DNA from: Haloarcula sp. H-GB4
GTDB lineage: Archaea; Halobacteriota; Halobacteria; Halobacteriales; Haloarculaceae
DNA length: 64,000 bases
Assembly: GCF_030848575.1 (NCBI RefSeq)
Contig: NZ_JAVDDX010000001.1
Span: forward strand, 1,426,001-1,490,000
Reading direction: 5' to 3'
Positions 17,972-56,891 of the stretch are shown piece after piece. A program made the position numbers and the translations under genes. The notes under the pieces were generated by a model. That model was given only the letters and a program-made list of their open reading frames with translations, made no database searches and was not told the origin of the DNA. Numbering within the stretch: position 1 is the first letter of the stretch; each line of letters opens with the position of its first letter.

Positions 17972-19903
17972 CTAATCTCCAATGACATCCACCTCGTACT
18001 CACTCGCTCGCACTCGAATCGGGAACCACCCCTCTTCATCGACTCCAAGCAGTGCTTCGGAGTAGCCATCAGCGCCATTCCCGGCTTTTGCCGATTGTAC
18101 CCAGTCGATCTCTCGGTCGCTGAGGTTGAACCACTCAGCCAGTTGCTGAGCCGCCTCATCAACGCGGTGGATGATCGTCATCGAGCAGAGGTTTGCAATC
18201 GTCCGGGCCTCCGGCGTGAGTGCGAACTCACCACCGGTCTGGGTGATGAACTGCAGGGAGATATCGTAATGCCGACTGTGACGGACAGCCGTTTCGAGGA
18301 AATCCAGCGAAGTTGCGTCATTCATCAGGTAGTGAGCTTCGTCGATAGCGAACGCCACTCGTTTGTCCGTCTGTTTGGCGCGTTCATACACCGCGTTGAA
18401 CAGCACCTGCATCATCAGACTCGTTTCGGACCGCCCGCGTGTCCCCTCCTCTTGGTGGAGATCCAGATACACGACATCGGATGTGATATCGAACTCAGTA
18501 GGTTCCGCAAGGTTCGCGAGGTCGCCACCGTCCCTGAAGGACGGACGCAGGTCGATCAACAGTGATTCTGCATCCGTCCGGACGTTCTCCTGTTCACCAG
18601 CTGTGACGTAGCCAAACGTCGCCGGATCGTCTAGCAGTTGTTCAAGAACGTCAATCACGTCACGGACGGTCGGTGATGACTGGTCGTGTGTCGCTGGGTC
18701 CCGGGTAATGCCCTGTTGCTCGTAGGCCTCTTGCACACACCGGCGAAGTGTCTGTTTTCGATCACCGAGGGGGTTCCCAGCTACCTGTTCGAAGAACGTC
18801 TCGAAGAACGTGAGGACCCACGCGATTTGCTCAGCCCATGGATCCAGATCCGGGACGGTATCTAACACAGTCGTCGGTGTGGGCTGTATCTCCAGTGGAT
18901 TGAACGACCGGGACCCGCCGACTGTGACACGCTCACCGCCGAGTGCGTCGTTGAGTGACGCAAACCCTTCAAGCGGATCCAGCATCACGAGTACCGTGTC
19001 CTGATCGTGCATCGCACGCCGGAGTAACTGCAGTTTCGTCGAGAAGGACTTGCCAGCGCCGAGTTTGCCAATCACCATCGCACAGTAGCCCGTTTCCCTG
19101 GCAAATCGATCGAGCAGGAGGGGACTCTCATTGAGTGCGTACGTCCCGTATTCGATGCCGTGTTCGGCCATCGCTCCCGAGACGAACGGAAACATTGCCC
19201 CCAGTGCGCCACCCAGCATCGGCGTCTGCGTATCCTGCTCAAGATTCATTTTGTCCACACCGACCGGGCTGGCTGAGATGAGTGCGTCCAGTTGTGCCCA
19301 TCGCGGCGACACTGGCGTTAGATTCGCTGGCGCTCGTCTGGCCGCGTTCGCAACCGTTTCCGACGTGACATCTTCGTTTGTCTTCCCTCGCTCGGTGAGA
19401 TACATCGACACGTCGAACGCTTCCATCGACGTGTTCCGAAGCACATCGTACAGTTCCTGGTAGTCCTGCAGGTCCTTGCTGACTCCCCGGGCGCCTGCAC
19501 GGCGCTTCTCCGAGAGATACTCCATTTCCGCTTCCAGATCCTCGATTTTGTTCTCCAGCGAATCCAGCGTCGTCTGCGTGTCTCTGGGTGTGATGTGTAT
19601 CGAGATGTCTGTCGTTCGTGTCTCGGCCGTCGAATACAGTTTCTCGAAGAGCCCATCCCGAGGTGCATCCGGAAACTGGCCAATCCAGAACGTGCGTGCC
19701 CACCGCTCACCGGTTCGTATCGTCGTCGGTGTTCGCTCAATTTCCGATGGTGCGACGAGTGACTGATGTATATCTGCAGGTGTATCCAACGACTGTTCAC
19801 TCTCCCTGTCGACGACATTGAATGCAGGCGTGTCGTCGCCAGAGGATTCCGCTCCTGATGCTGTGTCTGAGTTCCCTCGGAAGGGAAGCCAATCCCACGT
19901 CAT
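17972..19903 (-). CDS. VirB4-like conjugation ATPase
   Basis: 643 aa. After about 130 residues and a coiled coil (about residues 105-140) comes the motor domain: Walker A GKLGAGKSFS at residues 279-288, and Walker B VAFAIDEAH at residues 516-524, followed by the RHSRHYDISLQFITQ segment typical of VirB4/TraC. It would power assembly of a conjugative pilus and channel at the inner face of the membrane. The ATG overlaps the upstream gene's stop by four bases. The domain that VirB4 proteins usually have N-terminally appears to be partly encoded by that upstream gene. It is the last gene of the module's operon. Confidence 0.85.
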   Translation of the reverse strand: MTWDWLPFRGNSDTASGAESSGDDTPAFNVVDRESEQSLDTPADIHQSLVAPSEIERTPTTIRTGERWARTFWIGQFPDAPRDGLFEKLYSTAETRTTDISIHITPRDTQTTLDSLENKIEDLEAEMEYLSEKRRAGARGVSKDLQDYQELYDVLRNTSMEAFDVSMYLTERGKTNEDVTSETVANAARRAPANLTPVSPRWAQLDALISASPVGVDKMNLEQDTQTPMLGGALGAMFPFVSGAMAEHGIEYGTYALNESPLLLDRFARETGYCAMVIGKLGAGKSFSTKLQLLRRAMHDQDTVLVMLDPLEGFASLNDALGGERVTVGGSRSFNPLEIQPTPTTVLDTVPDLDPWAEQIAWVLTFFETFFEQVAGNPLGDRKQTLRRCVQEAYEQQGITRDPATHDQSSPTVRDVIDVLEQLLDDPATFGYVTAGEQENVRTDAESLLIDLRPSFRDGGDLANLAEPTEFDITSDVVYLDLHQEEGTRGRSETSLMMQVLFNAVYERAKQTDKRVAFAIDEAHYLMNDATSLDFLETAVRHSRHYDISLQFITQTGGEFALTPEARTIANLCSMTIIHRVDEAAQQLAEWFNLSDREIDWVQSAKAGNGADGYSEALLGVDEEGWFPIRVRASEYEVDVIGD

Positions 19904-20913
19904 GGGCGGTCCCCCACAAGCGGACGTGTCCGGAGTATCTCTTCGAAGTCACCGTATTCTAACGTCTGGCCGGCCCAGAACTCACTGATGACCTGTGCTC
20001 CATCGCTTGCATCGACGGTCATCGCTTCACACCCTTCGATATCGCGTATTCCGGACTGAACACGAGACAGTCGCTCTTCGAGTGTCGTGAACAGTGCCTC
20101 ACGCTGTCGTTCAGGTGCTGGGGCAGTCAGCGCACGCACGAACACGCCGAGTACCGGGATATCACTGAGCGTCGTCAGGATACTCTCCCGTTCGAACTGG
20201 ACTTCCTCGGGCGAGACCGTGACGATCACGTAGTGGTCTCGGATCGTCATCTGTCGGGCTGCCAGATCCTGTTCGTACCACTCGATATACCGCTCGATGA
20301 GTGTCCGGAGTTGTGCGTTTGCCTTTACGTCAGGGTCCTCCAGCCGCTCACGATAGTGATCGAGATATGTCTCGACTGGGAACGGCTGGGTTGTCGAGTA
20401 AATCTGTATCGGGAACGTAACGGCCGTATTCAGGAAGTCCTGAAAGCTATCGGCCGTTGTGGCCCATTCTTCGTCTGTTGCCAGTGCCATCGACGGTGGC
20501 GACACCCGAACAAGACCGACAACGGCGCCGTCTTGGCGCTTGATTGCGTTTGCATCCGGATACACGCGCTCAAGCTGGTGGTGATCCAGTGCCTCCGAAT
20601 GTGATTTCTCCGTTGCGGTCGTGTGGAATCGGATCATCGTCACCAGCCAGTCGAGGCTTGACGTGTACGCTGGTGTCACGTACACGAACACCGCGCCGAT
20701 ACAGATCGCGACTGCAACGATCGGGAGAAGTATCGCCTGGATCGTGTAGCCAGCAATCCGTGTCGACGACGGGACGACTAGCTGTACGAGCAAGATGACA
20801 GCAACGGCGGGCAACAGTACCACGACGGCATCGCCGAGGGTGTATGATCCAAGCAGCTTTGTCTCAGTACCAAGCGACTTCGGGATTCGTTTTGAAGGAG
20901 TTCTCTCAGCCAT
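19900..20913 (-). CDS. VirB3/PrgI-like membrane protein with VirB4-N-like domain
   Basis: 337 aa. Residues 20-85 hold two close membrane helices after a basic start, as in VirB3/PrgI. The remainder is soluble with a pattern (FQDFLNTAVTFPIQIYSTTQP, then VETYLDHYRERLEDPD) that resembles the N-terminal domain of VirB4/TraC. This suggests that in this archaeal system VirB3 is fused to the VirB4 N-terminus and the ATPase is a separate, overlapping gene. That is inference from order, topology and the overlap of stop and start; no catalytic motif is expected here. Confidence 0.65.
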   Translation of the reverse strand: MAERTPSKRIPKSLGTETKLLGSYTLGDAVVVLLPAVAVILLVQLVVPSSTRIAGYTIQAILLPIVAVAICIGAVFVYVTPAYTSSLDWLVTMIRFHTTATEKSHSEALDHHQLERVYPDANAIKRQDGAVVGLVRVSPPSMALATDEEWATTADSFQDFLNTAVTFPIQIYSTTQPFPVETYLDHYRERLEDPDVKANAQLRTLIERYIEWYEQDLAARQMTIRDHYVIVTVSPEEVQFERESILTTLSDIPVLGVFVRALTAPAPERQREALFTTLEERLSRVQSGIRDIEGCEAMTVDASDGAQVISEFWAGQTLEYGDFEEILRTRPLVGDRP

Positions 20914-20915: not shown

Positions 20916-22211
20916 TTAGTAGATGTAACGTGGGTTATCGTTATCGTCCGAGTCGCCATCCGACTCGTCAGTCTCGACGGACTCTGCGTCGGCCCCCGAC
21001 TCGTCAAACGGATCGGACTCGGGTGACTCGTTCTCGTGATCATTGTCTGGCGTGTCATCGTCGTCTCTATCCGTACTGGTTCTCGATTCGTCAGATTGAG
21101 CGGGATTGCTACGCTCGGTCGTCTCCGAGCTATCAGTCGTGGATGTACCGAGCCTGGAGCGAAGCGTTCGCTTCGTCTGGTCCACTTTACGGCCAACAGT
21201 GTGTGCGCTGGATGATCCCGATCCGAGCACTTCCTGGCCACTGGCTCTGATCGCAGACTGTCCCGTGAGCCCACGGCGGAGGTTCTTCAGGCCCAGCGTT
21301 CCGCGTTCACCTGCGTTCTCGACCGTTGCTTTGCGGTCGTGAGCACGCCGGCGTGAACTGTGCTGGGCCGCACGGTCAGCCATGAAGAACAGCGCACCGG
21401 CTTGCCAGAAGAGGACAAACGGGGCGATAACTGCGATGAGCGGCGTGATGATGGCCAGAAGCCACTGGCCGAATCCACCAATCGAAACCGTGACTGAATC
21501 GCCCAGCAACTCGCCTAGGCGAAACAGTACCGCGATGGGAACCGTCATGAACAGGAACGGGACATAAAAGCCCGCAAGTCGCGACATTAGCCGTGCAACC
21601 GGTGCAAACGGGCCGACACCCGGAACCCAGAACACGATAACCAGTGGCATCAGGAGGACATACAGGTATAGCGCCATCTGCCGGACGAGATAGATAAGCG
21701 CGAGGACGAGGAAGATCGTCAGATCGAGTGTCGCAGCAAGCGTCAATCCCGAGAGCCCCATCGCACCGAACGATACTGTCTCGAACAGGCCGATACTGTC
21801 GAGACTCGGCACAATAAAATCGACCAGCCCGTCGATGAATCGCAGTGACAGTGCGGCCATCCACCACCACGACAGGATGCCAAGCAGGCCGGCAAATGCC
21901 CGCTTTTTGAGCTTCGTTCGATGGTACCCGCTGAACAGGTGGCTTGTCGATTCTAGAAAGATGATCACGCCAAGCGAGAGTCCCCACAGCAGGAGTGTCA
22001 GCGGGACCATCGTATCCCAGTAGTACGTGTAAATCGACGGCCAGCCGCCGTTTGACGGTTGACTGAACACTGCATCCGGACGTGGCGTCGTCACGATCAG
22101 GTCGATGAGTGCCCCAACGTTGTCACCGACGAACCCGAACACCGGATCGACCAGCTTCTTCAGGAACCGCTCCAGTGCGTCGACGAATACGTCCCCCAGT
22201 GACTGTGTCAT
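20916..22211 (-). CDS. VirB6/TrbL-like polytopic channel protein with acidic tail
   Basis: 431 aa. Residues about 60-290 contain six to seven membrane helices. The C-terminal third is disordered and very acidic (runs of DDDD, DESD and NDNP), as in many haloarchaeal secreted or cytosolic tails. Position between a surface protein and the VirB3/VirB4 genes matches VirB6/TrbL, the channel component. Start at 22211; the stop is two bases before the next start, so the genes are tightly coupled. Confidence 0.7.
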   Translation of the reverse strand: MTQSLGDVFVDALERFLKKLVDPVFGFVGDNVGALIDLIVTTPRPDAVFSQPSNGGWPSIYTYYWDTMVPLTLLLWGLSLGVIIFLESTSHLFSGYHRTKLKKRAFAGLLGILSWWWMAALSLRFIDGLVDFIVPSLDSIGLFETVSFGAMGLSGLTLAATLDLTIFLVLALIYLVRQMALYLYVLLMPLVIVFWVPGVGPFAPVARLMSRLAGFYVPFLFMTVPIAVLFRLGELLGDSVTVSIGGFGQWLLAIITPLIAVIAPFVLFWQAGALFFMADRAAQHSSRRRAHDRKATVENAGERGTLGLKNLRRGLTGQSAIRASGQEVLGSGSSSAHTVGRKVDQTKRTLRSRLGTSTTDSSETTERSNPAQSDESRTSTDRDDDDTPDNDHENESPESDPFDESGADAESVETDESDGDSDDNDNPRYIY

Positions 22212-28408: not shown

Positions 28409-29350
28409 TCACCTGCGTTGGCACTCTTCGACGGCTTCGATTACCTCGGTCGCGGTTCGACTGATTCGACCGAGGCGGTCCAGAATCGTGTCAGGTTCTT
28501 CGGACTCCCATGCGGCGAGGTACAGGGCTGACCCGCTCATGTCTAGTCCGAAGTGTCGGCCCACGACGTAGGCGACCGATTCGGCTTCGACCTCTCGTTT
28601 CGTCCGCTCAGGTTTGTCTGTGACGCCCTTATGAAGTAATGCGTGGGCGTATTCATGGACAAGGACCGCAGCCATCGCGGCAGCACTCTCCCGAGCTTTG
28701 ATCTCAATGGCAGCGTCGTACTCTTCTTCATCGTCGACCGAGCGACAGATGCCTTCGGCAGCGCCGTGTTGCCACTCCTCTGCATCAACGACAGCTACCT
28801 GCACCCCCAGCGTGTCCGCTGCTCCAGTGACTGCTGGAAACAGATCTGTGGCGTCTCCGCGTGCGTCCGTGTCCAGTTCTGGCAGGGGTTCGCCCTCAGT
28901 CTGTGAGATATCAAAGACGGGGACGGGTTTGAACGCCACAGGCCCCTCCGACCACTCGTCGGGTGGCGTCTCGTCGTACTCACAGTCAGTGTCAGCGTGG
29001 TAGTTGGGGGAGTTGCCACAGCCCGGACACTGCTTGGCGATGATGGGTGCCCAGATCCAGATGGCCTGCTCACCGTCTTGGACCTGTCTGTCGAACTCCT
29101 CCTGCCACGTCCGGTAGCCGGCGACTTTCGTCGCCTCGGGACACTGCCGGGCGATTAACAGTGTGTTCCGATACGAATAATCGTGGAAGCGACTCTGGAC
29201 GTCAAGCCATGCCTGGAACTGCTCGCTTGCCTTTGCGTCGTCGACCTGTTCGGTCAGGTCCTGTGCCCACTGTTCGATCGTGCGATGCATCTCATCGGTG
29301 CGAGTGTCACTGGAGGGAAACTCCACTCGCGAGGTCGTGTTCGAAGCCAT
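28409..29350 (-). CDS. ArdC-like antirestriction metalloprotease
   Basis: 313 aa from the ATG at 29350. The N-terminal half matches the ArdC ssDNA-binding domain (YSYRNTLLIARQCPEATKVA, then GYRTWQEEF), followed by a Cys-rich insert. The C-terminal half is a zincin with HEYAHALLH (about residues 237-245) and the third ligand Glu in EVEAESVAYVV. ArdC proteins protect incoming plasmid DNA from restriction during conjugation. This supports transfer as the function of the whole block. It carries stem-loop SL3 upstream. Confidence 0.8.
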   Translation of the reverse strand: MASNTTSRVEFPSSDTRTDEMHRTIEQWAQDLTEQVDDAKASEQFQAWLDVQSRFHDYSYRNTLLIARQCPEATKVAGYRTWQEEFDRQVQDGEQAIWIWAPIIAKQCPGCGNSPNYHADTDCEYDETPPDEWSEGPVAFKPVPVFDISQTEGEPLPELDTDARGDATDLFPAVTGAADTLGVQVAVVDAEEWQHGAAEGICRSVDDEEEYDAAIEIKARESAAAMAAVLVHEYAHALLHKGVTDKPERTKREVEAESVAYVVGRHFGLDMSGSALYLAAWESEEPDTILDRLGRISRTATEVIEAVEECQRR

Positions 29351-29377
29351 TTCGAAACCCGCGAGGCACTGTGTGTG

Positions 29378-29398
29378 GCCCCGCACCCCTCAGGGGGC
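29378..29398 (-). promoter_or_regulatory. Stem-loop leader SL3 (ArdC gene)
   Basis: Minus strand: TTTTTG, then stem GCCCC/GGGGC with loop CTGAGGGGTGC, then 27 bases to the start at 29350. Same loop and spacing as SL2. Confidence 0.7.
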
Positions 29399-32992: not shown

Positions 32993-33045
32993 CGGTGGGG
33001 TCTGGGCCGGTCTGGCAAATAGCAAAAAAGAGAGGCCTTAGCCCG

Positions 33046-33894
33046 TTACTCCCACCACCGACCGCGTTCGGGGAAATGGATGGATGACCAGCCGGTGACG
33101 GCCAGCGAGGCGCGTCCCTCGTACCAGTTCACCGAGGCCCCGTGAATACGGACCTTATCCCCTTCCTCGATCCAGGGAGCTTCTGAGGCCTTCCAGATTG
33201 TCACACGCGTTCTGCCGCTCTCATCCTCGAGTAGTCCAACGTTCTGTATTGTGGGGCTCGAGGGATCCCACAACTGTGCCACCCGGCCTTCGATGCTCAC
33301 TTCACCGCGATTGACTTCTCCAACTTTCGCAATGGGAATGACTGTCCCAGCCGCCTGATCCAGTTCGTCGTAGACATCGACGACTGCATCCGTCATTCCA
33401 CGGCCGTCTGCAACCCGCTCGGCCAGCCGCCGACTGATCGCCGCCCGCGTCCAGCCATCGAGTTGCTCCGCCAACCGCGCTGCCTGCCTGTTGACCATTG
33501 CGAGGTTCGACTGCGAGAGCATCTCTCGGGGGTCGTCCTTCGCTGGATCCTGCCATCGGTCCACGCTCGCGGCCCGCTCGTCGAACCGCTCTCGTGCCTG
33601 CTGCCTCGCCTCCTGCACTGCATGTCGCGACCCCGCTTCCCGCATTTCAATTTGCTCGCCGACCCGGGCCCGAGTTCGTGCGATCTCGATGTCCCGCGCC
33701 ATCGCTTCCTCTTCCTGTGCCAGCGTCATGCTCGCCCGACAACTGTCCGGGTGGTTCGTATCGACTTTTCCCTGAATCTCCTGTTCGACCGACCGCCGCA
33801 GTTCGGGTGTCTCGTCGACGACCCAACCGCGCTTCTCGTCTTTTCGCTTCTGTGCGACCGTACGCTTATCACGAATGACCTTCTTATTTGACAT
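33046..33894 (-). CDS. OB-fold single-strand DNA-binding-like protein
   Basis: 282 aa. Residues 1-150 are long charged helices (Arg/Glu-rich, probably coiled coil). Residues about 190-275 look like an OB fold: EVSIEGRVAQLWDPSSPTIQ, then RTRVTIWKASEAPWIEEGDK and VRIHGASVNWYEGRASLAV. This matches RPA/SSB-type domains in haloarchaea. It probably binds single-stranded DNA, which suits replication or conjugative transfer. A hairpin with a different loop precedes it (33934-33957). Confidence 0.7.
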   Translation of the reverse strand: MSNKKVIRDKRTVAQKRKDEKRGWVVDETPELRRSVEQEIQGKVDTNHPDSCRASMTLAQEEEAMARDIEIARTRARVGEQIEMREAGSRHAVQEARQQARERFDERAASVDRWQDPAKDDPREMLSQSNLAMVNRQAARLAEQLDGWTRAAISRRLAERVADGRGMTDAVVDVYDELDQAAGTVIPIAKVGEVNRGEVSIEGRVAQLWDPSSPTIQNVGLLEDESGRTRVTIWKASEAPWIEEGDKVRIHGASVNWYEGRASLAVTGWSSIHFPERGRWWE

Positions 33895-42348: not shown

Positions 42349-42365
42349 TACAGAGGTGAACACAC

Positions 42366-42881
42366 ATGCCAGAATCCTACCCACGCGAACACATCGAAGA
42401 CCTCGTCGACGACAACCTAGAGTGGAATCAGCTGCACAACATGATGAGCGATTTCAAGGACGCGGACCGGTTCCAGCAAGTCCGCGACGTCCTGCAGGAG
42501 CGGGTCGACTGGGACGACCCGATTGTCATCCCGTACGCGGACCACCTGTACGTCGTCGCGAAGTCAGAGGACCGGTGGGTCATCAAGTGCGACTGTGGCC
42601 ACGAGTTCTGCGAGCACGACCAGAACTGGAAAGCAGACGCACTCATCAACGTCCGGGACTCCGAGGAGGAGTATCTCGAAATCTACCCCGCGGACATGCA
42701 CCCACACCCTGATTACATGGAACTGCGCGAGTTCTTCTGTCCGGGCTGCAAGACGCTGCTCGAAGTGACCAACGTCATGCCGGGGTACCCGCTCATCCAC
42801 GAGTTCGAGCCGGACATCGAGACGTTCTACGAGGACTGGATCGACGAGCCGATTCCGACGCCAGAGGGGCAGTCGGCGTAA
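42366..42881 (+). CDS. acxC: Acetone carboxylase gamma subunit
   Basis: 171 aa, the usual size. Two metal-binding Cys clusters are seen, CDCGHEFCEHD (about residues 76-86) and FFCPGCKTLL (about residues 121-130), separated by ADALINVRDSEEEYLEIYP. The gamma subunit is specific to acetone carboxylases and is absent from hydantoinases, so it is the strongest identifier of this locus. It starts 17 bases after the alpha gene. Confidence 0.85.
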   Translation: MPESYPREHIEDLVDDNLEWNQLHNMMSDFKDADRFQQVRDVLQERVDWDDPIVIPYADHLYVVAKSEDRWVIKCDCGHEFCEHDQNWKADALINVRDSEEEYLEIYPADMHPHPDYMELREFFCPGCKTLLEVTNVMPGYPLIHEFEPDIETFYEDWIDEPIPTPEGQSA

Positions 42882-42927
42882 CACCTCGACGGGCTTCCTT
42901 CCGTTCTGTATTCAATCGTGAAAACCC

Positions 42928-44505
42928 ATGCTACAACAGAGTCCGCCGACGCTGAAACAGCTCTACGAGTCAGTGCTCCGTCGATACGAGGGCGCACCTG
43001 CCGTCACATTCGGCGACGAGACGCTGACCTACGCTGACCTCGATACGGACTCCGCGCGTCTCGCCAATGCACTCTTGGAGCGTGGTCTTGAACCTGAAGA
43101 CCGCGTCGGAATCTTGCTATCGAATCGCCCGGAGTACACCGTCGCCGACATCGCACTTGCCCGTGCAGGCTTGGCGAAAGTCCCGCTGAACGACATGCTG
43201 TCGGCAGCGGACATCGAGTACATGTTGGACAACAGCGATACCAGCGCGCTCATAGTCGGCCCGTCTTTCGCCGAGATAGTCGAGTCAGTCGCTCCGAACG
43301 TGCCGACGCTGGACCGGGTCATCTCGATAGACGCGACAGTCAGTTCGAAACTGGAGCGCACCCACCATGTCGATTCGTTCGAGCAACTGTTCGAAACGGC
43401 CGAACCGGTGGCCCCGGACGTTTCGGTTTCGAAATCCACCCTTGCTGGCGTCTTCCACACTGGCGGGACAACCGGCGACCCGAAGGGCGTAAAACACACC
43501 CAGGAGAACCTCGCGCTGAACGCACTTGCACACGCCGTCGAACTCGATATCCAGCCCCGGGACACGCTATTGCTGATGACGCCGCTCCCGCACTCGGCTG
43601 GTCTCATCATGGCCGGCGGGTTAGCACAGGGGAGCCACCACGTCATCACGCAGGGCTTCGATGCCGAACGCGCCCTCGAACTCGTCGAGCAGGAAGACAT
43701 CTCGTGGACGTTCATGGTTCCCACGATGGTGTACCGCGTCCTCGACGTCCTCGAACGAGAAACACATGACACCTCGACGCTGGAGACGCTCGTATACGGC
43801 GCAGCACCGATGAAGCCGGATCGATTGCGCGAGGGGCTGGACAAGCTCGGCAGCGTCTTTCTCCAGCTGTACGGGCAATACGAGACGCCGGACCTCATCA
43901 CTGTCCTGCCGAAGGCCGCTCACGACCCCGACGACGAGGAGCGACTGTCCTCGTGTGGCCTCCCGACCACGATGTGTGAGGTGAAGGTTGTCAACGAGAG
44001 CGGCGAGACGGTCCCGCCTGGCCAGCCGGGTGAGATTCTAGCACGTGCCGCCTACTCCATGGAAGGGTACTACGAGATGCCGGAGAAGACCGCAGAGACG
44101 GTCGAAGACGGCTGGATCCACACCGGTGACATCGGGAAGGTAGATGAAGACGGCTACTTTTACATCATCGACCGGGACTCTGACGTTATCGTTAGCGGCG
44201 GGATGAACGTCTATTCCGTCGCCGTTGAGGAAGTCGTCCAGCAACACGACCAAGTGGCGAACGTCGCCGTCATCGGCGTCCCGGACGACGAGTGGGGCGA
44301 GGCGGTAAAGGCCGTCGTCGTCCCCGAGAGTGACACCGTAGACCGGGCGAATATCAGGTCGTTCTGTCGGGACCATCTGGCGGACTACGAAGTGCCGAAA
44401 TCCATCGATGTCGTCGAAACACTCCCGACGACCCCCTATGGAAAGCTCGACAAGAAACGACTCCGAGAACCATATTGGCAGGACCAGTCACGCCAGATCA
44501 ACTGA
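42928..44505 (+). CDS. AMP-forming acyl-CoA synthetase (candidate acetoacetyl-CoA synthetase)
   Basis: 525 aa. The ANL core motifs are TGGTTGDPKGVKH (phosphate loop, about residues 176-188), YGQYETP (about 312), GWIHTGDIGKVDEDGYF (about 389) and the C-terminal catalytic Lys in TPYGKLDKKRL. The family activates carboxylates through an acyl-adenylate. Downstream of acetone carboxylase the expected substrate is acetoacetate, giving acetoacetyl-CoA for thiolysis to acetyl-CoA. Substrate choice is inferred from context; other short or medium acids cannot be excluded. Confidence 0.8.
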   Translation: MLQQSPPTLKQLYESVLRRYEGAPAVTFGDETLTYADLDTDSARLANALLERGLEPEDRVGILLSNRPEYTVADIALARAGLAKVPLNDMLSAADIEYMLDNSDTSALIVGPSFAEIVESVAPNVPTLDRVISIDATVSSKLERTHHVDSFEQLFETAEPVAPDVSVSKSTLAGVFHTGGTTGDPKGVKHTQENLALNALAHAVELDIQPRDTLLLMTPLPHSAGLIMAGGLAQGSHHVITQGFDAERALELVEQEDISWTFMVPTMVYRVLDVLERETHDTSTLETLVYGAAPMKPDRLREGLDKLGSVFLQLYGQYETPDLITVLPKAAHDPDDEERLSSCGLPTTMCEVKVVNESGETVPPGQPGEILARAAYSMEGYYEMPEKTAETVEDGWIHTGDIGKVDEDGYFYIIDRDSDVIVSGGMNVYSVAVEEVVQQHDQVANVAVIGVPDDEWGEAVKAVVVPESDTVDRANIRSFCRDHLADYEVPKSIDVVETLPTTPYGKLDKKRLREPYWQDQSRQIN

Positions 44506-44508
44506 CCC

Positions 44509-44931
44509 ATGATCTCGAAGATCGATCACCTCGGTATCCTCGTCGACGATATCGAAACCAACAGGGAACTGTTCGAACTGCTCAGCCTCAATGTTGGGAC
44601 CGTCGAACACGTCCCGGCCTTTGGGGTCGACATCGCGTTCATTCGCGTCGGGGAGAGTCTGGTCGAACTCGTCGAACCAGTCGACCGGGGTTCGGAGATT
44701 GCTGCCGACCTCGACGCAACGCCGCAGTCAGCACTGATACACCACGTTGCGTTCCGTGTCGACGATATCGAAACAACATTGCTGGAACTCCGAAACGCTG
44801 GCGTGACACTCGCGGACGAGGAACCCCGTGACGGCGCAGGCGGTGCAAGCGTCGCGTTTCTCGACCGACAGGCTGGTAACGGTGTTCGCGTCGAACTCGT
44901 CGAGCGAGAGACGGACGTCGTCTTCAGCTAA
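44509..44931 (+). CDS. VOC-family protein, methylmalonyl-CoA-epimerase-like
   Basis: 140 aa. Two betaalphabetabetabeta modules hold metal ligands: KIDHLGILVDDIE with the first His, SLVELVEPVD with the first Glu, IHHVAFRVDDIE with the second His, and VRVELVERE with the second Glu. This is the layout of methylmalonyl-CoA epimerase and glyoxalase-like proteins. It begins three bases after the ligase gene and so is probably in the same operon, where it may act on a CoA intermediate. Whether it is a true epimerase is open. Confidence 0.75.
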   Translation: MISKIDHLGILVDDIETNRELFELLSLNVGTVEHVPAFGVDIAFIRVGESLVELVEPVDRGSEIAADLDATPQSALIHHVAFRVDDIETTLLELRNAGVTLADEEPRDGAGGASVAFLDRQAGNGVRVELVERETDVVFS

Positions 44932-44977
44932 CAACCGGCAGGAAGCAACTCACGTTATAAGAACAAAACATATGACG

Positions 44978-44996
44978 GTATTGTTCGTGACAATAC
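44978..44996. promoter_or_regulatory. Operator-like inverted repeat
   Basis: GTATTGTTCGTGACAATAC: perfect 7-base arms around 5 bases, followed by an A/T-rich TATA-like ACTTAATTAG. It lies between the epimerase-like gene and the Bat-type regulator (start 45160), so it probably controls the regulator gene or its autoregulation. Confidence 0.6.
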
Positions 44997-45159
44997 TTAA
45001 TTAGAGGAGAAACCTCGGGTACCGGTACTAGTCACCAAGCAGACTGGTGATGTTGGCTGTTACGGGCTTTCACACGCCAGCTTTCCATAACAGAGGATGC
45101 CAGCGGAACAAAACACGATATGATACCAGGCTGGACGCACAGACCGACACTCTGAACTG

Positions 45160-45840
45160 ATGCTCAGAATCGAATTTCAGATACGCTTGGCGGGAATTCC
45201 ATCGCAGATAGCCGACATCGACAGCCAGGTCAGTAGCGTCGAGATAGACAACGCACTACCAGTCGCCGGTGATTCGGTCTTTCTGTCCTTAACTGCCCAG
45301 TTCGGCTCCGACATCTCGCAGGACACACTCGCGGAGAAGTTGCCCGGCGTACAGATTATAGATATGTCGAAGGCGGATGTGAACCAGCATACGTACTATC
45401 TCGGCGTCATTGCAGCGCTCTCGGACGCATCCGTTCTCTCTCTCCTGACGGAAAACCAGGCGATTCCACACAGAATCGTCGGGCGGAACGCGCACCTCAA
45501 TGTGGTCGCATCCGTACGCGACTGGAACCATCTCAAGGAAGTCGCAAGCACCGTTGAGGACGAACACGGCTCACTGGAGTTGGTCGGGACGACACAGACC
45601 GAGACGATCGGGTTTCCGCTCGGCGGCAACAAAATAAAACAGAGCATGTCGGGCAAACTGTCCGACAAACAACTCGAGGTACTGGAGACTGCCTACCGGA
45701 TGGGCTACTTCAAGGTTCCACAGGAGGTGACAGCCGAGGAGATCGCGAGCGAACTGGACATCAGCAGGTCGACGCTGAGTGAACGGCTCCGCCGAGTCGA
45801 GCACAACTTCTGTGAGTTACTGTTCGGGCCACAAGAATGA
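45160..45840 (+). CDS. Bat-type HTH_10 transcription regulator
   Basis: 226 aa. The N-terminal 160 residues are a beta-rich sensor-like region without a named domain. The C-terminal 55 residues are the HTH_10 module typical of haloarchaeal Bat regulators: KQLEVLETAYRMGYFKVPQE, then AEEIASELDISRSTLSERLR. It likely senses a metabolite or redox cue and activates the neighbouring acetone-carboxylase genes. Its last four bases overlap the next gene. Confidence 0.8.
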   Translation: MLRIEFQIRLAGIPSQIADIDSQVSSVEIDNALPVAGDSVFLSLTAQFGSDISQDTLAEKLPGVQIIDMSKADVNQHTYYLGVIAALSDASVLSLLTENQAIPHRIVGRNAHLNVVASVRDWNHLKEVASTVEDEHGSLELVGTTQTETIGFPLGGNKIKQSMSGKLSDKQLEVLETAYRMGYFKVPQEVTAEEIASELDISRSTLSERLRRVEHNFCELLFGPQE

Positions 45841-46235
45841 CGACGATCATCATCATCAATTCGGTCGAGCAACAACCCACTGTCAGGGAGGTTCTGAGCT
45901 CAGTTGTCGACGTGGGCGAGACGGTTTATTTTCTCCGATTGCCGACCGTTCGCTGTCTTGGCCCGCTCATTCAGGAAGTCAACCCCATGATCGAATACGA
46001 TGTGGAGTACACGATTAGCTGTCTCCCCGAGGGATATGACGTTGCCGAGCTCGTCGAATTCGCAGTCGAAACCGACGCCGACCGGATCTGTATCGGGATC
46101 TCCGAACGGACAGTGACCGGCAAAGCTCGAATTGACGACCTGACGGAGTCAGTGTTGCTCCACGACCGGATTTCTGGCGACTTCGTGGTCGGTGAGCACG
46201 TCATCATTCTGGAGGAACTCGACTATGCGCAGTAA
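45837..46235 (+). CDS. UspA-like small protein coupled to the regulator
   Basis: 132 aa. A Rossmann-like Usp fold is suggested by the last third: EFAVETDADRICIGISERTV, then TGKARIDDLTESVLL, the equivalent of the Usp GxxGxxxxxGS nucleotide loop in altered form. The start overlaps the regulator stop (ATGA), so the pair is co-translated. It may be the sensory partner of the regulator; this is inference. Confidence 0.6.
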   Translation: MTTIIIINSVEQQPTVREVLSSVVDVGETVYFLRLPTVRCLGPLIQEVNPMIEYDVEYTISCLPEGYDVAELVEFAVETDADRICIGISERTVTGKARIDDLTESVLLHDRISGDFVVGEHVIILEELDYAQ

Positions 46236-46297
46236 CGTCTCAGCCGAGAACTGCGGCCGCCTGTCAGCACTACGGCCACCGAAAGAGGAGACCAGCG

Positions 46298-48811
46298 ATG
46301 AGTCAAACTGACCAAAACAAGACCGAACAACGCCGGCAGGAAGCGAAACGACAAAAAGAGATCGTCCGAGAGAAACGGCAGCGAAACGAGGGCATTGGCT
46401 GGGACGGCAGGACGCTCCGCGAGCAACTGGCCGAGCTAGAGGACAAGACGGAGGCGACGGGCCGCTACTCCGGGATCACAGAGCTCTCACTCAAAGAAGA
46501 CGACCCGATACGGTTCGAACAGCTCTATTCGCGGCTCCGTGGCGACCTTGTAACTGCACGCGAGATCTCGAAAGAAGTCTCTGCGACCCCAATCGTCGAA
46601 CAGGAGGGTGAACTCTGTTACGGCCTGTTCACCCCGGAAGGTGACTCTATCGCCGTTTCGACGGGAATTATTGTCCACGTGCACACGATGAGCGAAGCTA
46701 TCAAATTCATGATTAACCACGATTACGAGGAGAGCCCGGGAATCGAACCGGGAGATATCTTCGTCAACAATGACCCCCACGTGGGGGACGTGCATCCGTG
46801 TGACCTGATGACGCTGATTCCTATCTTTCACGATGGCGAACTCGTCGCCTGGGCTGGCGGCGTCAACCATGTCATCGATACCGGGGCAATCGGTCCCGGC
46901 AGCATGAACGTCTCACAGGCCTCCCGCTTCGGCGACGGTGCCTACTACACGGCCCGCAAAGTCGGTGAGGAGTTCCAATTGTACAACTCCTGGAAAAAAG
47001 AATACCCTGCCAAGACGCGGACGCCGAACTTCCTGAAACTCGACGAGAGAACCCGTATTACCGGCTGTCTCATGATCCGGGACTCGGTCAAGGAGATGAT
47101 CGAGAGAACGGGGATCGAGACGTTCAAACAGCTCTCTCGGGAAGCGATTGAGTACGGTCGACGCGGCTTTCGCAACAGAATCAAGAAGACGATGCTGCCT
47201 GGTACGTATCGCGGCGCATCTTTCGTCGACGCGCTCTATGAGGGGCAACAGAACGTCACACGCGAATACGCAAACGAGAATCATCTCATGCACGCCCCCT
47301 CAGAGCTACACATCCGCGAGGACGGCTCGTTCCAGGTTTCCTTCGAGGGCGCAAACAAGTGGGGCTGGCATCCCTACAACTGTACCCCAGCCGCCATACA
47401 GGGCGGTATCTGGGTGATGCTCACGCAAACTGTGATACCGAATGAACTGGTCAACGACGGCGCATACTACGCCTGTGATTTCCATCTACCTGTCGGGTCG
47501 TGGGCCAACACACAGAACACTGAGACAGCGCACGCCTACGCCTGGCACTTCCTGGTCTCTGCCTGGGCCCCACTCTGGCAGCATCTCTCGCGGGGATACT
47601 ACGCACGCGGCTTCTGGGAGGAAATCAACGCCGGCAACGCGAACACGTCGAACTGGCTGCAAGGCGGCGGCATCGACCAGTTCGACAAACTCCACGCCGT
47701 CAATTCGTTCGAAGCTGCCTGTGAGGGGGTGGGTGCCCGCTACGTTGCGGACGGCGAGCCCCACGCATCAGCTATCTGGAACCCCGAAGGCGACATGGGC
47801 GACGCCGAGGCGTGGGAACAGGTCGAACCGCTGCCGTTCCTTGGCCGTGCAGTCAAGCCCAATACAGGCGGTGCTGGACGCCGTGCAGGCGGCGCTGGTT
47901 TCGAGTCGATGCGAACGATCAAGGACGTGAGCCGGTGGCTGCTGTATGAGATGGGCAACGGCTACATGACCAGCGACGGTGGCCTCTTCGGCGGGTATCC
48001 CGCTGCCTCGGGATATATACTGAACGCACAGGATACGGACCTCGAGGAACGCTTCGAGAACGGCGAGGACTACCCACAGCACGACCTTGACCCGGAAAGT
48101 GGCGAGTTCGAGTCCAAAATCGACGGAGACGTGACGCGGCGCCCGGAGGGTATCAGCACGCCCAAAGAGTTCGACGACTACGACATGTACCTGAACTACC
48201 TCCGCGGTGGGTCGGGACTGGGCGACCCGCTCGAACGTGACCCGGAAGACGTCCTTTCGGACATCCATGATGGGTATGTCCTCCCCCGACACGCCGAAGA
48301 CGCGTATGCGGTCGTGGTGAACAAAGTCAACGGCGAGGCAAAGCATAACTCCGCTGTCCAGGGCGAATGGGAACTCGACAAGGAAGCGACCGAACAACTC
48401 CGCGAGAAGCGCATGGACAAACGCGCCGAGAAAGCACAACCGGTGTCGGAGTGGTACGACCAGCAACGCGATCGTATTCGGAATGAAGAGGACCTCATCG
48501 ACGACGTAAAAAAGACCTACGAGAGTAGCATGCGGATGAGCGAGCAGTTCGCAAGATTCTTCCGGAACTTCTGGGACCTCCCAGAAGACTTCGCGTTTGA
48601 TCTCAGCTATCAAGCCGAACAGTCGCTGGACAACAGGTTTGACTCTGGACTCCGGCCGATGTGGGACAACTACACGCGGCGACACAAAACCTGGCTTGAC
48701 GTGGATGATGAACCGTACGTCCCGTACACGTGGACAGACCGGTCGCTTCAGGACCTCCCGGACTCAGTGTCGACGTTCAAGCATCTTGAGCAAACAAGCG
48801 ACGACGATTGA
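46298..48811 (+). CDS. Second alpha-type subunit (HyuB-like), paralogue of the gene at 39826
   Basis: 837 aa. The central part (about residues 60-700) is nearly identical in sequence to the protein at 39826, including GDIFVNNDPHVGDVHPCDLM. The first 40 and the last 60 residues differ. There is no beta or gamma partner next to it, so it either shares the partners of the first locus or replaces that alpha subunit under other conditions. It follows the regulator pair after 62 bases. Some synonymous positions are conserved in long stretches, suggesting recent duplication or gene conversion. Confidence 0.8.
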   Translation: MSQTDQNKTEQRRQEAKRQKEIVREKRQRNEGIGWDGRTLREQLAELEDKTEATGRYSGITELSLKEDDPIRFEQLYSRLRGDLVTAREISKEVSATPIVEQEGELCYGLFTPEGDSIAVSTGIIVHVHTMSEAIKFMINHDYEESPGIEPGDIFVNNDPHVGDVHPCDLMTLIPIFHDGELVAWAGGVNHVIDTGAIGPGSMNVSQASRFGDGAYYTARKVGEEFQLYNSWKKEYPAKTRTPNFLKLDERTRITGCLMIRDSVKEMIERTGIETFKQLSREAIEYGRRGFRNRIKKTMLPGTYRGASFVDALYEGQQNVTREYANENHLMHAPSELHIREDGSFQVSFEGANKWGWHPYNCTPAAIQGGIWVMLTQTVIPNELVNDGAYYACDFHLPVGSWANTQNTETAHAYAWHFLVSAWAPLWQHLSRGYYARGFWEEINAGNANTSNWLQGGGIDQFDKLHAVNSFEAACEGVGARYVADGEPHASAIWNPEGDMGDAEAWEQVEPLPFLGRAVKPNTGGAGRRAGGAGFESMRTIKDVSRWLLYEMGNGYMTSDGGLFGGYPAASGYILNAQDTDLEERFENGEDYPQHDLDPESGEFESKIDGDVTRRPEGISTPKEFDDYDMYLNYLRGGSGLGDPLERDPEDVLSDIHDGYVLPRHAEDAYAVVVNKVNGEAKHNSAVQGEWELDKEATEQLREKRMDKRAEKAQPVSEWYDQQRDRIRNEEDLIDDVKKTYESSMRMSEQFARFFRNFWDLPEDFAFDLSYQAEQSLDNRFDSGLRPMWDNYTRRHKTWLDVDDEPYVPYTWTDRSLQDLPDSVSTFKHLEQTSDDD

Positions 48812-51945: not shown

Positions 51946-54900
51946 ATGAAAGCAGGAGAAAAGTTACCGGTCCCAGTCGAGGAGACCCGGCAGTACATCC
52001 GGATCACGCCGACAGACGAACCAGTGGATCCGGACACCGTCAAGGCGCAGTTCGAACGCCTGCATAGACTAGAATCCCAAAACACCAACACTGGCCTTCT
52101 AGACCGATTCACCGGGTCCCAACCAACGATCGAAGTCTATCTAGTCGCCCCACCGGAAGACACGCAGACCATCCAGTACTACGTCGGCGTCGACACCCCG
52201 GACCTCCAGGAACCACTCGAGCGTATCCTTCGCACACTGTTCCCGGACAGTTACGAGTTCCAGACGGTCCAGTGGGCGCCGACACTGCTCCCTGAAGAGC
52301 CCGCAGCAGGCGTGCAGTTCGAAGCGCGACCTGAACGCCGCAAGGACTGGCAAACCCGACTCAGGCCGTTACACGAGTTTCAGCACGACGGCGAGCACGT
52401 CCGCGCGCCACTGGCAAGCGTCGTTGAGGCGATGGCCGCCACCGACGGTCCGGCACTGTTACAGATACTCGTCCGCCCCAAAACTGACTGGTCGACCGAC
52501 AGAGATCTCCACCGACGAACGCTCGAAGAGGGTCGGGAATCGTGGGCCGGACAGGTTATCACTGCACTGCTGGGCCCGGCCGAGAGGATCCACACCGACA
52601 TGCCGATTCCCGTCGAAGACCGCTCACGCCTCGAAGAACTCGCCGAACGAGACCCTCGACGATCCTTCGACGTCAACGTCCGCGCCATCCTGTGCAACGA
52701 CACGGACCAACACGTCGCCGATGATCTCGCAACAGCCTTCGCCGAGGTGAGTCACACCTGTTACGAGATTACCGGCACCGTCTGCACGGGAACGGACGCA
52801 ACCGATCTTCGAACCCAGATCTGTGACCGGGTGTTCCGGCCCGCTGACTACGACCGACTGCAGTACCGCCTTCCGTTCACTACTCCATCCAGTCCGGGGA
52901 TCGTCGCCGACGCGAGCGAACTGGGGAGCCTCTGTCTGCTCGATGGGAGCGCGCTCACGACTGCAGCCAGACGCGCCCTCGCGACGACACCCGGTGAGCG
53001 ACGCATGCTCCCACCGCCGCCGCCGTCACATCTCTCCCCGTTTCGCGATGACGGCCTGCCGCTTGGCCGTCCGCTCTCACAGGACGGGACGGCCCAGGAC
53101 GAGCCAGTAACGCTCCCGCCGTCACTCCAGTCGCTACACGTCGCATGGTTTGGCAAAACCGGGTCGGGCAAGTCCACCAGCCTCACGAACGGGATCCTCG
53201 CGAACCACGCGGCCACCGACGGAGCGGATATCGTGTTCCTGCCGAAAGGAGGTGGGATGGCTACCGAGTATATGCGTGCTCACTACGCCACGTACGGTGA
53301 CCTTGATGACGTGTTGTACTTCGATTGTGCCGCACTGTTACCTGCTCTCTCGTTTTTCGATATCCGCAAGGATCTCGAGGCTGGCGTTTCTCGGACCACC
53401 GCTGTTGAGGATAAAGCCGATCACTACCTCGAACTGCTCGTGGGGATCATGGGCCGTGACCGGTTTGAACAGGCCGTCCGGTCGCCGGATATCATCCGCT
53501 ATCTGGTGAAAGCGCTGTTTGACCCGGTCAACGGTGACGATGCCTTTCAGCATCGTGACCTGCACGCAGCCGCCCAGGAGATGCACGACCGGCAGTCAGC
53601 CCCGGCCGTAGCCGACGAGGATCTTGAACGACTGCTTTCCGGTGTCGTGGCCAACAGCGCCCGTTCGTTCGATGAGATCATGCAAGGGGTCGCCAATCGG
53701 ATCGAGAAGATTCCCGTTGACCGTCGACTGGCCCGTCTGTTCAATCACGTCCCTGAGGCCGATGACCCGCACTTCGACTTCGGTGAGTTCCTTGATCAGG
53801 ACGTCGTCATCATCGTCGACACCGGCCGCGTTCGCACGGACACCCAACGTGTTATGACGCTTGTACTTCTGTCGAACCTCTGGTCCGCTCTGCGCCGGCG
53901 CGCCCAGTCGACACCCTCGACAAAATCATATAATCTCGTTAATGTATATCTCGAAGAAGCCGCCTCGGTTGCTACCTCAAATATATTACAGGACTTGCTC
54001 TCACAGTCGCGTGGCTTCGGTGTCGGGATCACACTCGCGATGCAGTTCCCTGACCAACTGCGTCGGATCGACGATGCCGTCTATCGAGAGTTGCTCAACA
54101 ACGTCTCGACGTACGTCACCGGCAATGTCCCGACTGATGATCGACTGGCCAGCCGGTTCACGACCGCGGATATGTCAGAACAAGAGATTTCCGATCAGCT
54201 CAAGTGGCTCCCCCGCGGAGAGTGGCTGGTTCAGTTACCCGCCCCTTTCGATTACCCCGAACCACGACCGTTTCAGGTGGAATCTTTGCCACTCCCAGCT
54301 GGCAATCCAGACGGGCCTGGCCCATCGATTCCCACTGACGATATCGAGCCGATAGTTGCGGACGTAACAGCGCGAACACGGTCGGAAGCTGGGCTCACCC
54401 TTGCGTCACCGAGCACTCCCGACGAAACCGGTGACAGCGATGATCCGACCGACGAGTCCACGCCTGTGCGGGTCGATAGCGCCCTCCCGCAGACGCGTCG
54501 CCTCCCGGAAACGGTTTCCTACGACCGGGAGAGTCACGCCCTGCACTGTCAGGACTGTGGAAACCGGTATGATCCGTCCATCGACGGGATGCGGCGTGTG
54601 ATCGCCTGCTGTGGTTCCCTTGCCGATGTCGACCCTGATGACGTCCCGATCTGTACGCTGAATCTGAAGCGCTCGGCCGAGGAACGCGCAAACAGTGAAT
54701 GGTCGACGACACAGCTGTGTTTCCTGCAGGCTGTCTACAACGCCCAGCAACTCCGATATGACCCGCTCGAATACGATCTCCTGTCCGATTCGATGCTTCG
54801 ATTACAGGAGTATGTCGGGATCGAGAGCGACGCCGTCCAAGACTTGCTCGATGCCGATGTCCTGCGCCACGATACGGATCGCCCCCATCGCCTGTACTCG

Positions 54901-55524
54901 GTGACCCCTGCAGGTAGGGACGCTATCGGGGAATCGTACCGCCGTGGCGTCGATTACGGCCACGAATGTGGCGATCTTGAGGAATCCAGCGAGCACGTCC
55001 TTGCCGTCGAGGCGGCCCGGCTCTATCTCGAACACGAGTACGCCGCGGACCCGGAGTCACCAGTGACACAGGTCGTCCCCTACTACGAAATTCAGGACGG
55101 CTCGCTCCCGGCTGCGACGTTCATGGGGACGGATGAAGACGCTGTCGAGGAAGTCTCGGAGTCCTACTCTTTGCATCGGCTGGACCTTGTCGGGCTGGAT
55201 GCCGAGGGCGAGATCCGTATTACGCTTGAGGCCGAACGCGTCAACAACGACCATCGACGCGCTGTCCCCGCTGATTTCGATAAGATGGCCGCGTGTGATC
55301 CCGACGAGGCTATCTGGGTCGCCATGTCGCACGACGCCGCTCATGAGATTCTTGCCGCGCTCAATGATCCACTGGAGGGCGAGCCACGTGTCGAGAAAAC
55401 GTATTCCGAAAGCACCCCTGCGAGTTCTTTCACCATTGACGAACCCGGCTTCTCGGACATCATCACGGTTAACCAGCTGCTTGATCGGGTCGATCGCCCG
55501 GATCCACGTGACTTGCAAGGCTAG
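51946..55524 (+). CDS. VirD4/HerA-like coupling ATPase with C-terminal zinc-binding, winged-helix and nuclease-like extension
   Basis: 1192 aa, much longer than classical VirD4. Residues 1-360 are an unrecognised N-terminal region. The motor has Walker A FGKTGSGKS (about residues 402-410), Walker B VVIIVDTG (about 622) and the sensor-like VYLEEAASV (about 666-674), followed by SQSRGFGVGITLAMQFPDQL typical of VirD4/TraG and HerA. Residues 868-910 carry CQDC, CC and another Cys (zinc site). A winged helix follows (about 920-990). Near residues 1080-1097, RLDLVGLD and ITLEAERVN resemble a PD-(D/E)xK core with the Lys replaced. It would bring DNA to the transfer channel. It is 28 kb from the VirB4 operon. 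Confidence 0.8.
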   Translation: MKAGEKLPVPVEETRQYIRITPTDEPVDPDTVKAQFERLHRLESQNTNTGLLDRFTGSQPTIEVYLVAPPEDTQTIQYYVGVDTPDLQEPLERILRTLFPDSYEFQTVQWAPTLLPEEPAAGVQFEARPERRKDWQTRLRPLHEFQHDGEHVRAPLASVVEAMAATDGPALLQILVRPKTDWSTDRDLHRRTLEEGRESWAGQVITALLGPAERIHTDMPIPVEDRSRLEELAERDPRRSFDVNVRAILCNDTDQHVADDLATAFAEVSHTCYEITGTVCTGTDATDLRTQICDRVFRPADYDRLQYRLPFTTPSSPGIVADASELGSLCLLDGSALTTAARRALATTPGERRMLPPPPPSHLSPFRDDGLPLGRPLSQDGTAQDEPVTLPPSLQSLHVAWFGKTGSGKSTSLTNGILANHAATDGADIVFLPKGGGMATEYMRAHYATYGDLDDVLYFDCAALLPALSFFDIRKDLEAGVSRTTAVEDKADHYLELLVGIMGRDRFEQAVRSPDIIRYLVKALFDPVNGDDAFQHRDLHAAAQEMHDRQSAPAVADEDLERLLSGVVANSARSFDEIMQGVANRIEKIPVDRRLARLFNHVPEADDPHFDFGEFLDQDVVIIVDTGRVRTDTQRVMTLVLLSNLWSALRRRAQSTPSTKSYNLVNVYLEEAASVATSNILQDLLSQSRGFGVGITLAMQFPDQLRRIDDAVYRELLNNVSTYVTGNVPTDDRLASRFTTADMSEQEISDQLKWLPRGEWLVQLPAPFDYPEPRPFQVESLPLPAGNPDGPGPSIPTDDIEPIVADVTARTRSEAGLTLASPSTPDETGDSDDPTDESTPVRVDSALPQTRRLPETVSYDRESHALHCQDCGNRYDPSIDGMRRVIACCGSLADVDPDDVPICTLNLKRSAEERANSEWSTTQLCFLQAVYNAQQLRYDPLEYDLLSDSMLRLQEYVGIESDAVQDLLDADVLRHDTDRPHRLYSVTPAGRDAIGESYRRGVDYGHECGDLEESSEHVLAVEAARLYLEHEYAADPESPVTQVVPYYEIQDGSLPAATFMGTDEDAVEEVSESYSLHRLDLVGLDAEGEIRITLEAERVNNDHRRAVPADFDKMAACDPDEAIWVAMSHDAAHEILAALNDPLEGEPRVEKTYSESTPASSFTIDEPGFSDIITVNQLLDRVDRPDPRDLQG

Positions 55525-56891
55525 CTTGGGTTGAGTGGGCCCGCTACACCTGGCCAAAACCGTTCTTTGTCGATCTGGGGGTGTCCAACCCAGGGCTCCA
55601 GCCCCGCAACAAGGTGACTAATCGCTGTCGAGCCTGGCTAGATGCGTGGGGATATCAGCTGGCGAATGCCGTAGCTAACTGGCCAACGCGGCTCTATTCG
55701 TCGGACAGCGCCCTGCTCGAAGCCAGTCTGGAACTACCATGTCATGCAGGTTTGTTATTTTAATTTGAGGGTTCGGATGCATCCAAATTTCCAACCTTGG
55801 TTGCTGTCTTGCGATTTTCTCTAAGGTTGAAGATAGTTATCAATCTGTCATATTTCGAGTTATCGATCTGTATTTCCCACGGAGCGCCCCGCTCGCCTGG
55901 CTTTTCCTCGTGTTTCGCCCGTCTGCCCGTTCTGTCTGCTTGTTGGTGGGTGTCTAGGGAGTACTAGAACCGCTTTGGTTTATTCTACCGGTGGATTTTC
56001 ACAAGGTTGCCCAGCGAAAGCTGCATTGGGAAATTCCAGTTCCGCAACCTCGGGTGTTCATTTTGCATACCTCTCTCTGTATCGGGCATTGGTGGAACCA
56101 ACTTTGTGGATATATCAGGTATTGAAGAAGCTCAATAACTGAATCGTTCTTTTCGGAAACGAAGGGTAGTTTGATTTTGCAACCAACTTCGACACCACAA
56201 TTCCAGAAGCGACTGACCCTATCCCGCGGTCGGTACACTATTCCATCTGGGTAGGTCAGCCCTGCTTCTTGAATTGAGATTCCACCTGAAATTGTACTAC
56301 CTTGTGTGTTTCTATCACACCATAGTTTGGATGCTGGTATGGCCAGCAGTTCGATGCATCAGATGTAGTCAGTACTGAGAAAATGATATAAGTCCAACCA
56401 TTCTAGCTAACGGCTTTGCTGGTAACAGTGGAAGGCCAGCAATCCCAGAACTGATTGAGGATCTTGACCCGATGCAATAGAGGGTATGTTCAAATTTAGG
56501 CTGACGAGAAACGTATGCTAGCAAACTTGATTGCAATCAATGTGATGTCAGACCGGCTCATAGGACATATTTTATTTATGATACAATATTGCGCGAGCCA
56601 AATATGATCTAATATAAGAGTGATTATATTGATAGGGGTTTGTGCATCCCATAGATTATTCACGGAAGGTAATCATTTGATTTGTTTTATTGTTGAATAA
56701 TCAACCGATACTGGGGTGTGCCACACCCGCTGGAAGTGAAAGCATAGATCTGTTTCAGGTATGCACCACAGTTGAATACCATAGAGGGTATCATATGACT
56801 CTGCACAAAGTGTTACTTTCAGCTAGGGTCCCTGAACAGACTATCTAGTATCCTTACGAATCTCTGGCCTGGGAATGGAGGTGGCACGAAG
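55525..56891. other. Gene-poor, partly decayed stretch
   Basis: 1.37 kb between the coupling ATPase and the core chromosomal genes. 55525-55760 is GC-rich with no gene. From about 55760 the sequence is AT-rich. It includes one likely decayed coding region (55999-56353). 56480-56880 has many A/T runs but no clear inverted-repeat cluster or iterons. It probably marks the right border of the accessory region. Confidence 0.5.
55999..56353 (-). pseudogene. Decayed coding sequence of unknown family
   Basis: A minus-strand frame without ATG but with protein-like composition over about 118 codons: LLAIPASKLWCDRNTQG, GLTYPDGIVYRPRDRVSRFW and LLQYLIYPQSWFHQCP. Farther upstream it is interrupted by TGA and TAG (LEWLDLYHFLSTDYI lies between two stops). 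This pattern suggests an old gene with several nonsense mutations. Family not recognised. Confidence 0.4.

Follow-up and report, generated by a model that had tools for sequence, protein, structure and literature searches.

A coupling protein (T4CP) whose C-terminal part joins a DNA-binding domain to a predicted restriction-type nuclease is carried by most haloarchaea that have a conjugation system. It appears likely, with a probability of about 0.66, that this protein is a self-nicking coupling protein that serves conjugation in haloarchaea. The fusion itself, the invariance of key residues in the tail, and the association with T4SS genes are shown; the nuclease fold is predicted, and nicking, binding of the transfer origin (oriT), a need for the protein in transfer, and rejoining of the cut strand are inferred. 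The gene lies in the window, by which is meant the whole stretch of 64,000 nucleotides of Haloarcula sp. H-GB4 DNA that was analysed. Its parts, in window coordinates, are as follows.

51946..55524, + strand: T4CP of VirD4/HerA type with a fused C-terminal nuclease (predicted), 1192 aa; one ORF, TrwB_AAD_bind E 1.7e-5
53083..54285, + strand: ATPase core, about residues 380-780; Pfam and NCBIfam matches, conservation
53152..53175, + strand: Walker A motif GKTGSGKS, residues 403-410; read in the translation, inside a DUF87/HerA match at 386-430
54547..54612, + strand: probable zinc site C868, C871, C888, C889; conservation, weak TRASH match in homologues
54676..54945, + strand: winged helix, about residues 911-1000; MarR-type Foldseek matches, hhalign to the MOBC winged helix E 2e-5
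54964..55503, + strand: predicted PD-(D/E)xK nuclease domain, about residues 1007-1186; AF2 of a homologue domain, Foldseek, profile search
55183..55185, + strand: D1080, predicted catalytic Asp, strand 2; invariant in 59/59
55228..55236, + strand: E1095-x-E1097, predicted catalytic pair, strand 3; both invariant in 59/59
55282..55284, + strand: K1113, candidate for a catalytic Lys displaced to the next helix (79-92 of the model); K in 56/59, Q in 3/59

The gene is a single uninterrupted frame, present in one copy in the 4.19 Mb genome, on a contig of 1.63 Mb. The Pfam domain TrwB_AAD_bind (PF10412) matches residues 594-728 (E 1.7e-5; 24.4 bits against a curated cut-off of 20.5), and the motor part also gives weak matches to TraG-D_C, DUF87, CedB and SXT TraD in Pfam and NCBIfam. 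Membership of the VirD4/TrwB class was judged on a TrwB/TraG ATPase domain with a Walker A motif and on genetic association with a VirB4 T4SS, and the 1192-aa protein meets both. The last ~340 residues gave no useful match in sequence searches of Pfam, NCBIfam or the PDB. The ATPase, the Cys site, the winged helix and the C-terminal domain lie in one ORF and form a genuine fusion; it is not an accident of assembly, because the same fusion recurs across Halobacteria. Thus the preliminary description of a 1192-aa VirD4/HerA-like fusion held (single ORF, Pfam match, family-wide recurrence), as did its placing of a Cys-rich site near residue 868 and a winged helix near residues 920-990 (conservation, Foldseek).

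Among 46 near full-length homologues, C868, C871 and C888 are kept in all 46 and C889 in 43. The probable zinc site is missing from a plasmid sub-family (family 2, ~34% identity) and is therefore regarded as dispensable. When a model of the whole 348-residue tail was used as the Foldseek query, the best matches to the winged helix were of the MarR type (prob 0.97-0.99). With that query the winged helix and low-confidence linkers dominate the search, and the compact domain of a homologue was modelled instead.

In the whole-tail model (17 sequences), the nuclease part has a pLDDT mostly of about 77-91, and the tail mean is 69, which is mediocre overall. The isolated domain of the homologue L033, which is 65% identical, was predicted by AF2 from 21 sequences with a pLDDT of 89 and a pTM of 0.84. 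Its elements run H15-33, E42-50, E53-60, E66-73, H79-92, E97-102 and H105-116, and the model thus has the canonical alpha-beta-beta-beta-alpha-beta core that defines PD-(D/E)xK topology. In a Foldseek search of the PDB with this domain, ranks 1-24 are all PD-(D/E)xK proteins and the first outsider stands at rank 25. They comprise YaeQ, EndoMS/NucS, SfsA, Cdn1 and Can2, and also PaqCI, BsaXI, BpuSI, the small subunit of R.BspD6I (BspD6I2) and Mus81-Eme1. Individually each match is weak (prob up to 0.96, E 0.05 at best); it is on ranks 1-24 as a group that the resemblance to solved structures of the superfamily rests, and on that basis the domain satisfies this criterion. The C-terminal domain is thus predicted, by a model of pLDDT 89, to have the PD-(D/E)xK fold. 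A fold unrelated to nucleases had been set beforehand as a result that would refute the idea; this refutation did not occur.

Aligned to the L033 model, D1080 falls on strand 2, E1095 and E1097 on strand 3, and K1113 in the next helix, and E1013 and H1017 lie at the start of the first helix or just ahead of it. In the 46 near full-length homologues, R1078, D1080, E1095, E1097, R1098, N1100, D1102, D1110, D1112 and K1113 are invariant. A more diverse set of 59 adds the plasmid sub-family (L055-L061, L064, L070) and short forms of ~850 aa (L065-L068), and so spans three sub-families, with identity as low as about 34%; here D1010, E1013, H1017, D1080, E1095, E1097, D1110 and D1112 are invariant in 59/59. 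The conserved D plus (D/E)xK signature is met, with the Lys position occupied by E1097 (ExE). A D-ExE active site is found in BamHI, which is a precedent for ExE in place of ExK. The D-ExE site of the haloarchaeal tail also resembles that of MOBC relaxases.

It had been suggested from the sequence alone that D1080, E1095 and E1097 form a nuclease-like core with the Lys replaced. The positions proved exact, the three residues are invariant in the 46 close and the 59 diverse homologues, and the proposed check on conservation of the acids was passed (59/59). The replacement of Lys holds at the motif itself, and K1113 in the next helix is a candidate substitute. The idea of a PD-(D/E)xK-like nuclease is supported by the predicted fold and the invariant acids. 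The conservation of the active-site residues is shown; metal-dependent DNA cleavage is inferred, there being no biochemistry, and catalysis remains an inference.

The closest parallel is with the MOBC relaxases, which are PD-(D/E)xK enzymes; their prototype, pAD1 TraX, carries a winged helix at its N-terminus (PMC12857230). MobC of CloDF13-type plasmids (P0002) matches PF13814 (Replic_Relax) with E 1.2e-21, and five MobC proteins share an invariant H, PD, ExER and K. The immediate neighbour of mobC is a T4CP or HerA-like gene in nearly all of the MOBC plasmids examined, Gram-positive and Gram-negative alike. The haloarchaeal tail shares with CloDF13 MobC and pAD1 TraX a His in the first helix, PD, an ExE-type motif, and the association with a T4CP. 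It differs in carrying ExER-x-N and a DFDK helix, and in being fused to the T4CP, whereas MOBC is a separate gene of ~240 aa in bacteria.

Profile comparison by hhalign of the tail with 19 MOBC sequences, Gram-positive and Gram-negative, gave a probability of 85%, E 6e-6 and a score of 46, against at most 14-15 in 20 column shuffles. The alignment is in register through the winged helix, the helix-1 His, the Asp and the ExER (H...D...ExER). When it is split, the winged helix only gives E 2e-5, and the nuclease only gives E 0.0044, a probability of 8% and a score of 23.5, with shuffles reaching at most 12.9. An earlier hhalign comparison with only five MobC sequences was not significant. Of the features that mark MOBC, a winged helix followed by PD-(D/E)xK in the same order is present; so is encoding with a T4CP on mobile elements, in fused form, in 169 plasmid records. 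A PF13814 match over cut-off is not, being found in 0/292 haloarchaeal genomes, with no hit among the homologues scanned. MOBC enzymes also nick oriT at a specific site, no covalent link having been observed; for the haloarchaeal tail such nicking is inferred. Common ancestry with MOBC is likely but unproven, because winged helices are common and supply much of the combined score and because the nuclease-only match is marginal. The tail is not filed as MOBC, since PF13814 misses it and the nuclease-only profile match is weak. In a plasmidome study of a halobacteria-rich lake, MOBC and Replic_Relax matches were counted with their source unnamed (PMC8563766).

The window also holds T4SS genes and genes of related kinds, all on the minus strand.

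17972..19903, - strand: VirB4-type T4SS ATPase; AAA_10, DUF87 and TraG P-loop matches
19900..20913, - strand: PrgI/VirB3-like protein (weak); PF12666 E 0.046, below cut-off
20916..22211, - strand: TrbL/VirB6-like membrane protein; PF19590 E 9.9e-20
28409..29386, - strand: ArdC-N antirestriction-like protein; PF08401 E 4.3e-5
33046..33894, - strand: OB-fold single-strand-binding-like protein; PF01336 E 4.8e-6

That this VirB4-type ATPase belongs to the same element as the T4CP is inferred. The T4CP lies <60 kb from VirB4 in 24 of the 30 same-contig pairs (pairs with a listed VirB4), and homologues of the OB-fold protein lie <10 kb from the T4CP in 12/20 loci. On pNRC200 of Halobacterium salinarum NRC-1, VirB4 is followed by the T4CP, VNG_RS11050, with its nuclease motif intact, and by a primase-like gene, the gene ends overlapping. 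No relaxase had been recognised in the window, and this held: ten window proteins were scanned without finding one, and no match to PF13814, PF03432, PF08751 or PF01076 was placed there. The statement is limited to the window, as HUH relaxase genes exist on two other contigs of the source genome.

A search next to the T4CP gene for clusters of oriT-like repeats found none. Directly downstream, window positions 55525-56891 form ~1.4 kb without convincing genes; it is possible that cis-acting sites lie there, with no repeat cluster among them. A tRNA attachment site was looked for and not found, and neither element borders nor an integrase were located within the window. Several other observations concern the region. 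A 57-nt direct repeat, 98% identical (17361-17417 and 32944-33000), flanks the T4SS gene cluster. The interval that separates the T4CP from the T4SS genes holds hydantoinase/acetone-carboxylase-like cargo genes (37513-48811). The large B-type subunit is encoded there twice (39802-42348 and 46298-48811), by copies whose DNA is up to 87% alike. An ORF at 17488-17859, close to the left end of the T4SS cluster, resembles part of transcription factor B and is possibly a TFB remnant; positions 26599-27537 hold a full TFB-like gene.

Reviews reportedly state that archaea have no relaxase. That haloarchaea wholly lack HUH relaxases is rejected, as PF03432 matches over cut-off occur in 20/292 haloarchaeal genomes. 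These HUH loci serve as a natural control. The two in the source genome (L121:2157-5978 on C5 and L122:659-4498 on C7) share the order VirB4, NikA-like RHH, RHH, HUH relaxase and TrwB-type T4CP, and so give this haloarchaeon a second conjugation module, of canonical appearance. In L124-L127 the T4CP adjoins the HUH gene, and at L128:4851-6920 an HUH relaxase (PF03432) and a T4CP (TrwB_AAD_bind E 8.4e-38) make up one ORF of 690 aa. In that fusion the HUH nuclease is N-terminal, in contrast to the C-terminal PD-(D/E)xK tail, and the two nucleases are unrelated. HUH relaxases thus occupy the same slot, beside or fused to a T4CP and at several loci near VirB4, and none of the T4CPs at the seven loci (L121, L122, L124-L128) has a PD-(D/E)xK domain. 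That the slot at the T4CP holds either of the two nucleases fits the view that the PD-(D/E)xK tail does the relaxase's job, an argument that rests on seven HUH loci.

Relatives of the T4CP, counted at E < 1e-10, were found in 184/292 haloarchaeal genomes and 62/77 genera. A profile of the nuclease domain, run over 247 genomes of the phylum, matched only in Halobacteria, in the same order, and mostly within T4CP ORFs. The family is present on 169 plasmid records, of which 168 are typed non-mobilizable; four queries found no relatives among 2.9 million viral contigs. The tail varies: L069 keeps the nuclease motif without the zinc site or the winged helix, and L062 and L063 are T4CPs of about 1540 aa whose C-terminal ~500 aa have a different apparent winged helix, an RPD...ExE nuclease-like motif and a Pox_D5-type domain. 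Candidate stand-alone nuclease ORFs in G040 were rejected; they border stretches of N, and are probably pieces of T4CP genes that assembly gaps have interrupted. In G195 and L050, frameshifts are the probable cause of split T4CP genes. A stand-alone protein of 291 aa (L116:4936-5811), with a winged helix and a PD-(D/E)xK-like part, lies ~1.3 kb from a tyrosine-integrase-like ORF, and may serve a small integrated element as its mobilisation protein.

Among known motors, the protein resembles VirD4/TrwB/TraG in its ATPase core, its TrwB_AAD_bind and TraG-D_C matches, and its encoding with VirB4. Unlike them, it has an extra zinc site, winged helix and nuclease, shows no evident N-terminal membrane helices in its sequence, and scores weakly against the family. 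The archaeal DNA import and repair motors CedB, CedD and HerA show weak NCBIfam similarity in the motor, far under equivalog cut-offs (CedB: E 2.9e-8, 32.8 bits where the cut-off is 700); none is known to have a fused nuclease of this kind. TdtA, of the Thermus transjugation ICE, is likewise a HerA/FtsK-type DNA-donation motor that works with nucleases (PMC5365140), but its nuclease is a separate NurA-like protein and its system has no T4SS. No description of a fused T4CP-nuclease protein was found in the open-access literature searched; most subscription papers and preprints lay outside the search.

The mechanism proposed for a self-nicking coupling protein is as follows. The winged helix would recognise the transfer origin on the element, and the PD-(D/E)xK domain would cut one strand there, thereby starting transfer. 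The ATPase part would couple the DNA to the VirB4/VirB6 pore and pump it. The protein would in effect work as a MOBC relaxase joined to its own coupling protein. The earlier suggestion that the fused domain starts archaeal conjugation is supported by VirB4, VirB6, the plasmids, the ICE-like elements and the MOBC and HUH parallels; nicking, oriT and transfer itself are inferred. It counts against self-nicking that the HUH relaxases on other contigs of the source genome could possibly act in trans.

Of the alternatives, the first is that the protein is a translocase-coupled DNA-end-processing nuclease, similar to HerA-NurA, which pumps double-stranded DNA and at the same time trims or degrades it, without a specific origin. 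In its favour, the ATPase is of the HerA/VirD4 class, HerA-NurA has been proposed to make single-stranded DNA for archaeal transfer (PMC9905601), and donation by the HerA-like TdtA of Thermus is efficient only with a NurA-like nuclease and a restriction enzyme (PMC5365140). However, a winged helix between motor and nuclease suggests sequence recognition, and the domain layout matches MOBC. The NurA fold is also a different one. This reading is considered unlikely.

Also unlikely is that the nuclease-fold domain is confined to binding DNA or a partner while another protein is the true relaxase, for example an HUH protein in trans. The source genome does have HUH relaxase genes on two other contigs, and the nuclease activity of the tail is inferred, none having been shown. 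Against this, the predicted catalytic acids are invariant in 59/59, unlike a decayed site; HUH relaxases occur in 20/292 genomes against 184/292 for the T4CP family; and HUH genes adjoin a T4CP of their own. Least likely of all is a role in defence or interference, in which a protein carried by a plasmid or ICE would pump incoming DNA and cut it: the ATPase part is matched by the PADLOC profiles for mad8 and HerA (E 8.5e-8 and weaker), and pairs of HerA and a nuclease do occur in defence, but the matches are confined to the motor, and the gene accompanies VirB4, VirB6 and SSB-like genes and adjoins VirB4 on pNRC200.

If the self-nicking reading is true, the protein may be the missing enzyme that starts haloarchaeal conjugation, the cutting itself being inferred. 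It is a concrete and widespread candidate with named residues to mutate, and a member of the family is at hand on pNRC200, whose host NRC-1 is a laboratory strain. A bolder reading, towards which the balance tips by a small margin, is that this family of coupling proteins is the long-sought archaeal relaxase, and that most of the plasmids and integrated elements of haloarchaea at present typed non-mobilizable owe the start of their transfer to it. Were the self-nicking reading borne out, plasmid-typing tools could recognise haloarchaeal conjugative plasmids; among the plasmid records that carry the family, 168/169 are now called non-mobilizable.
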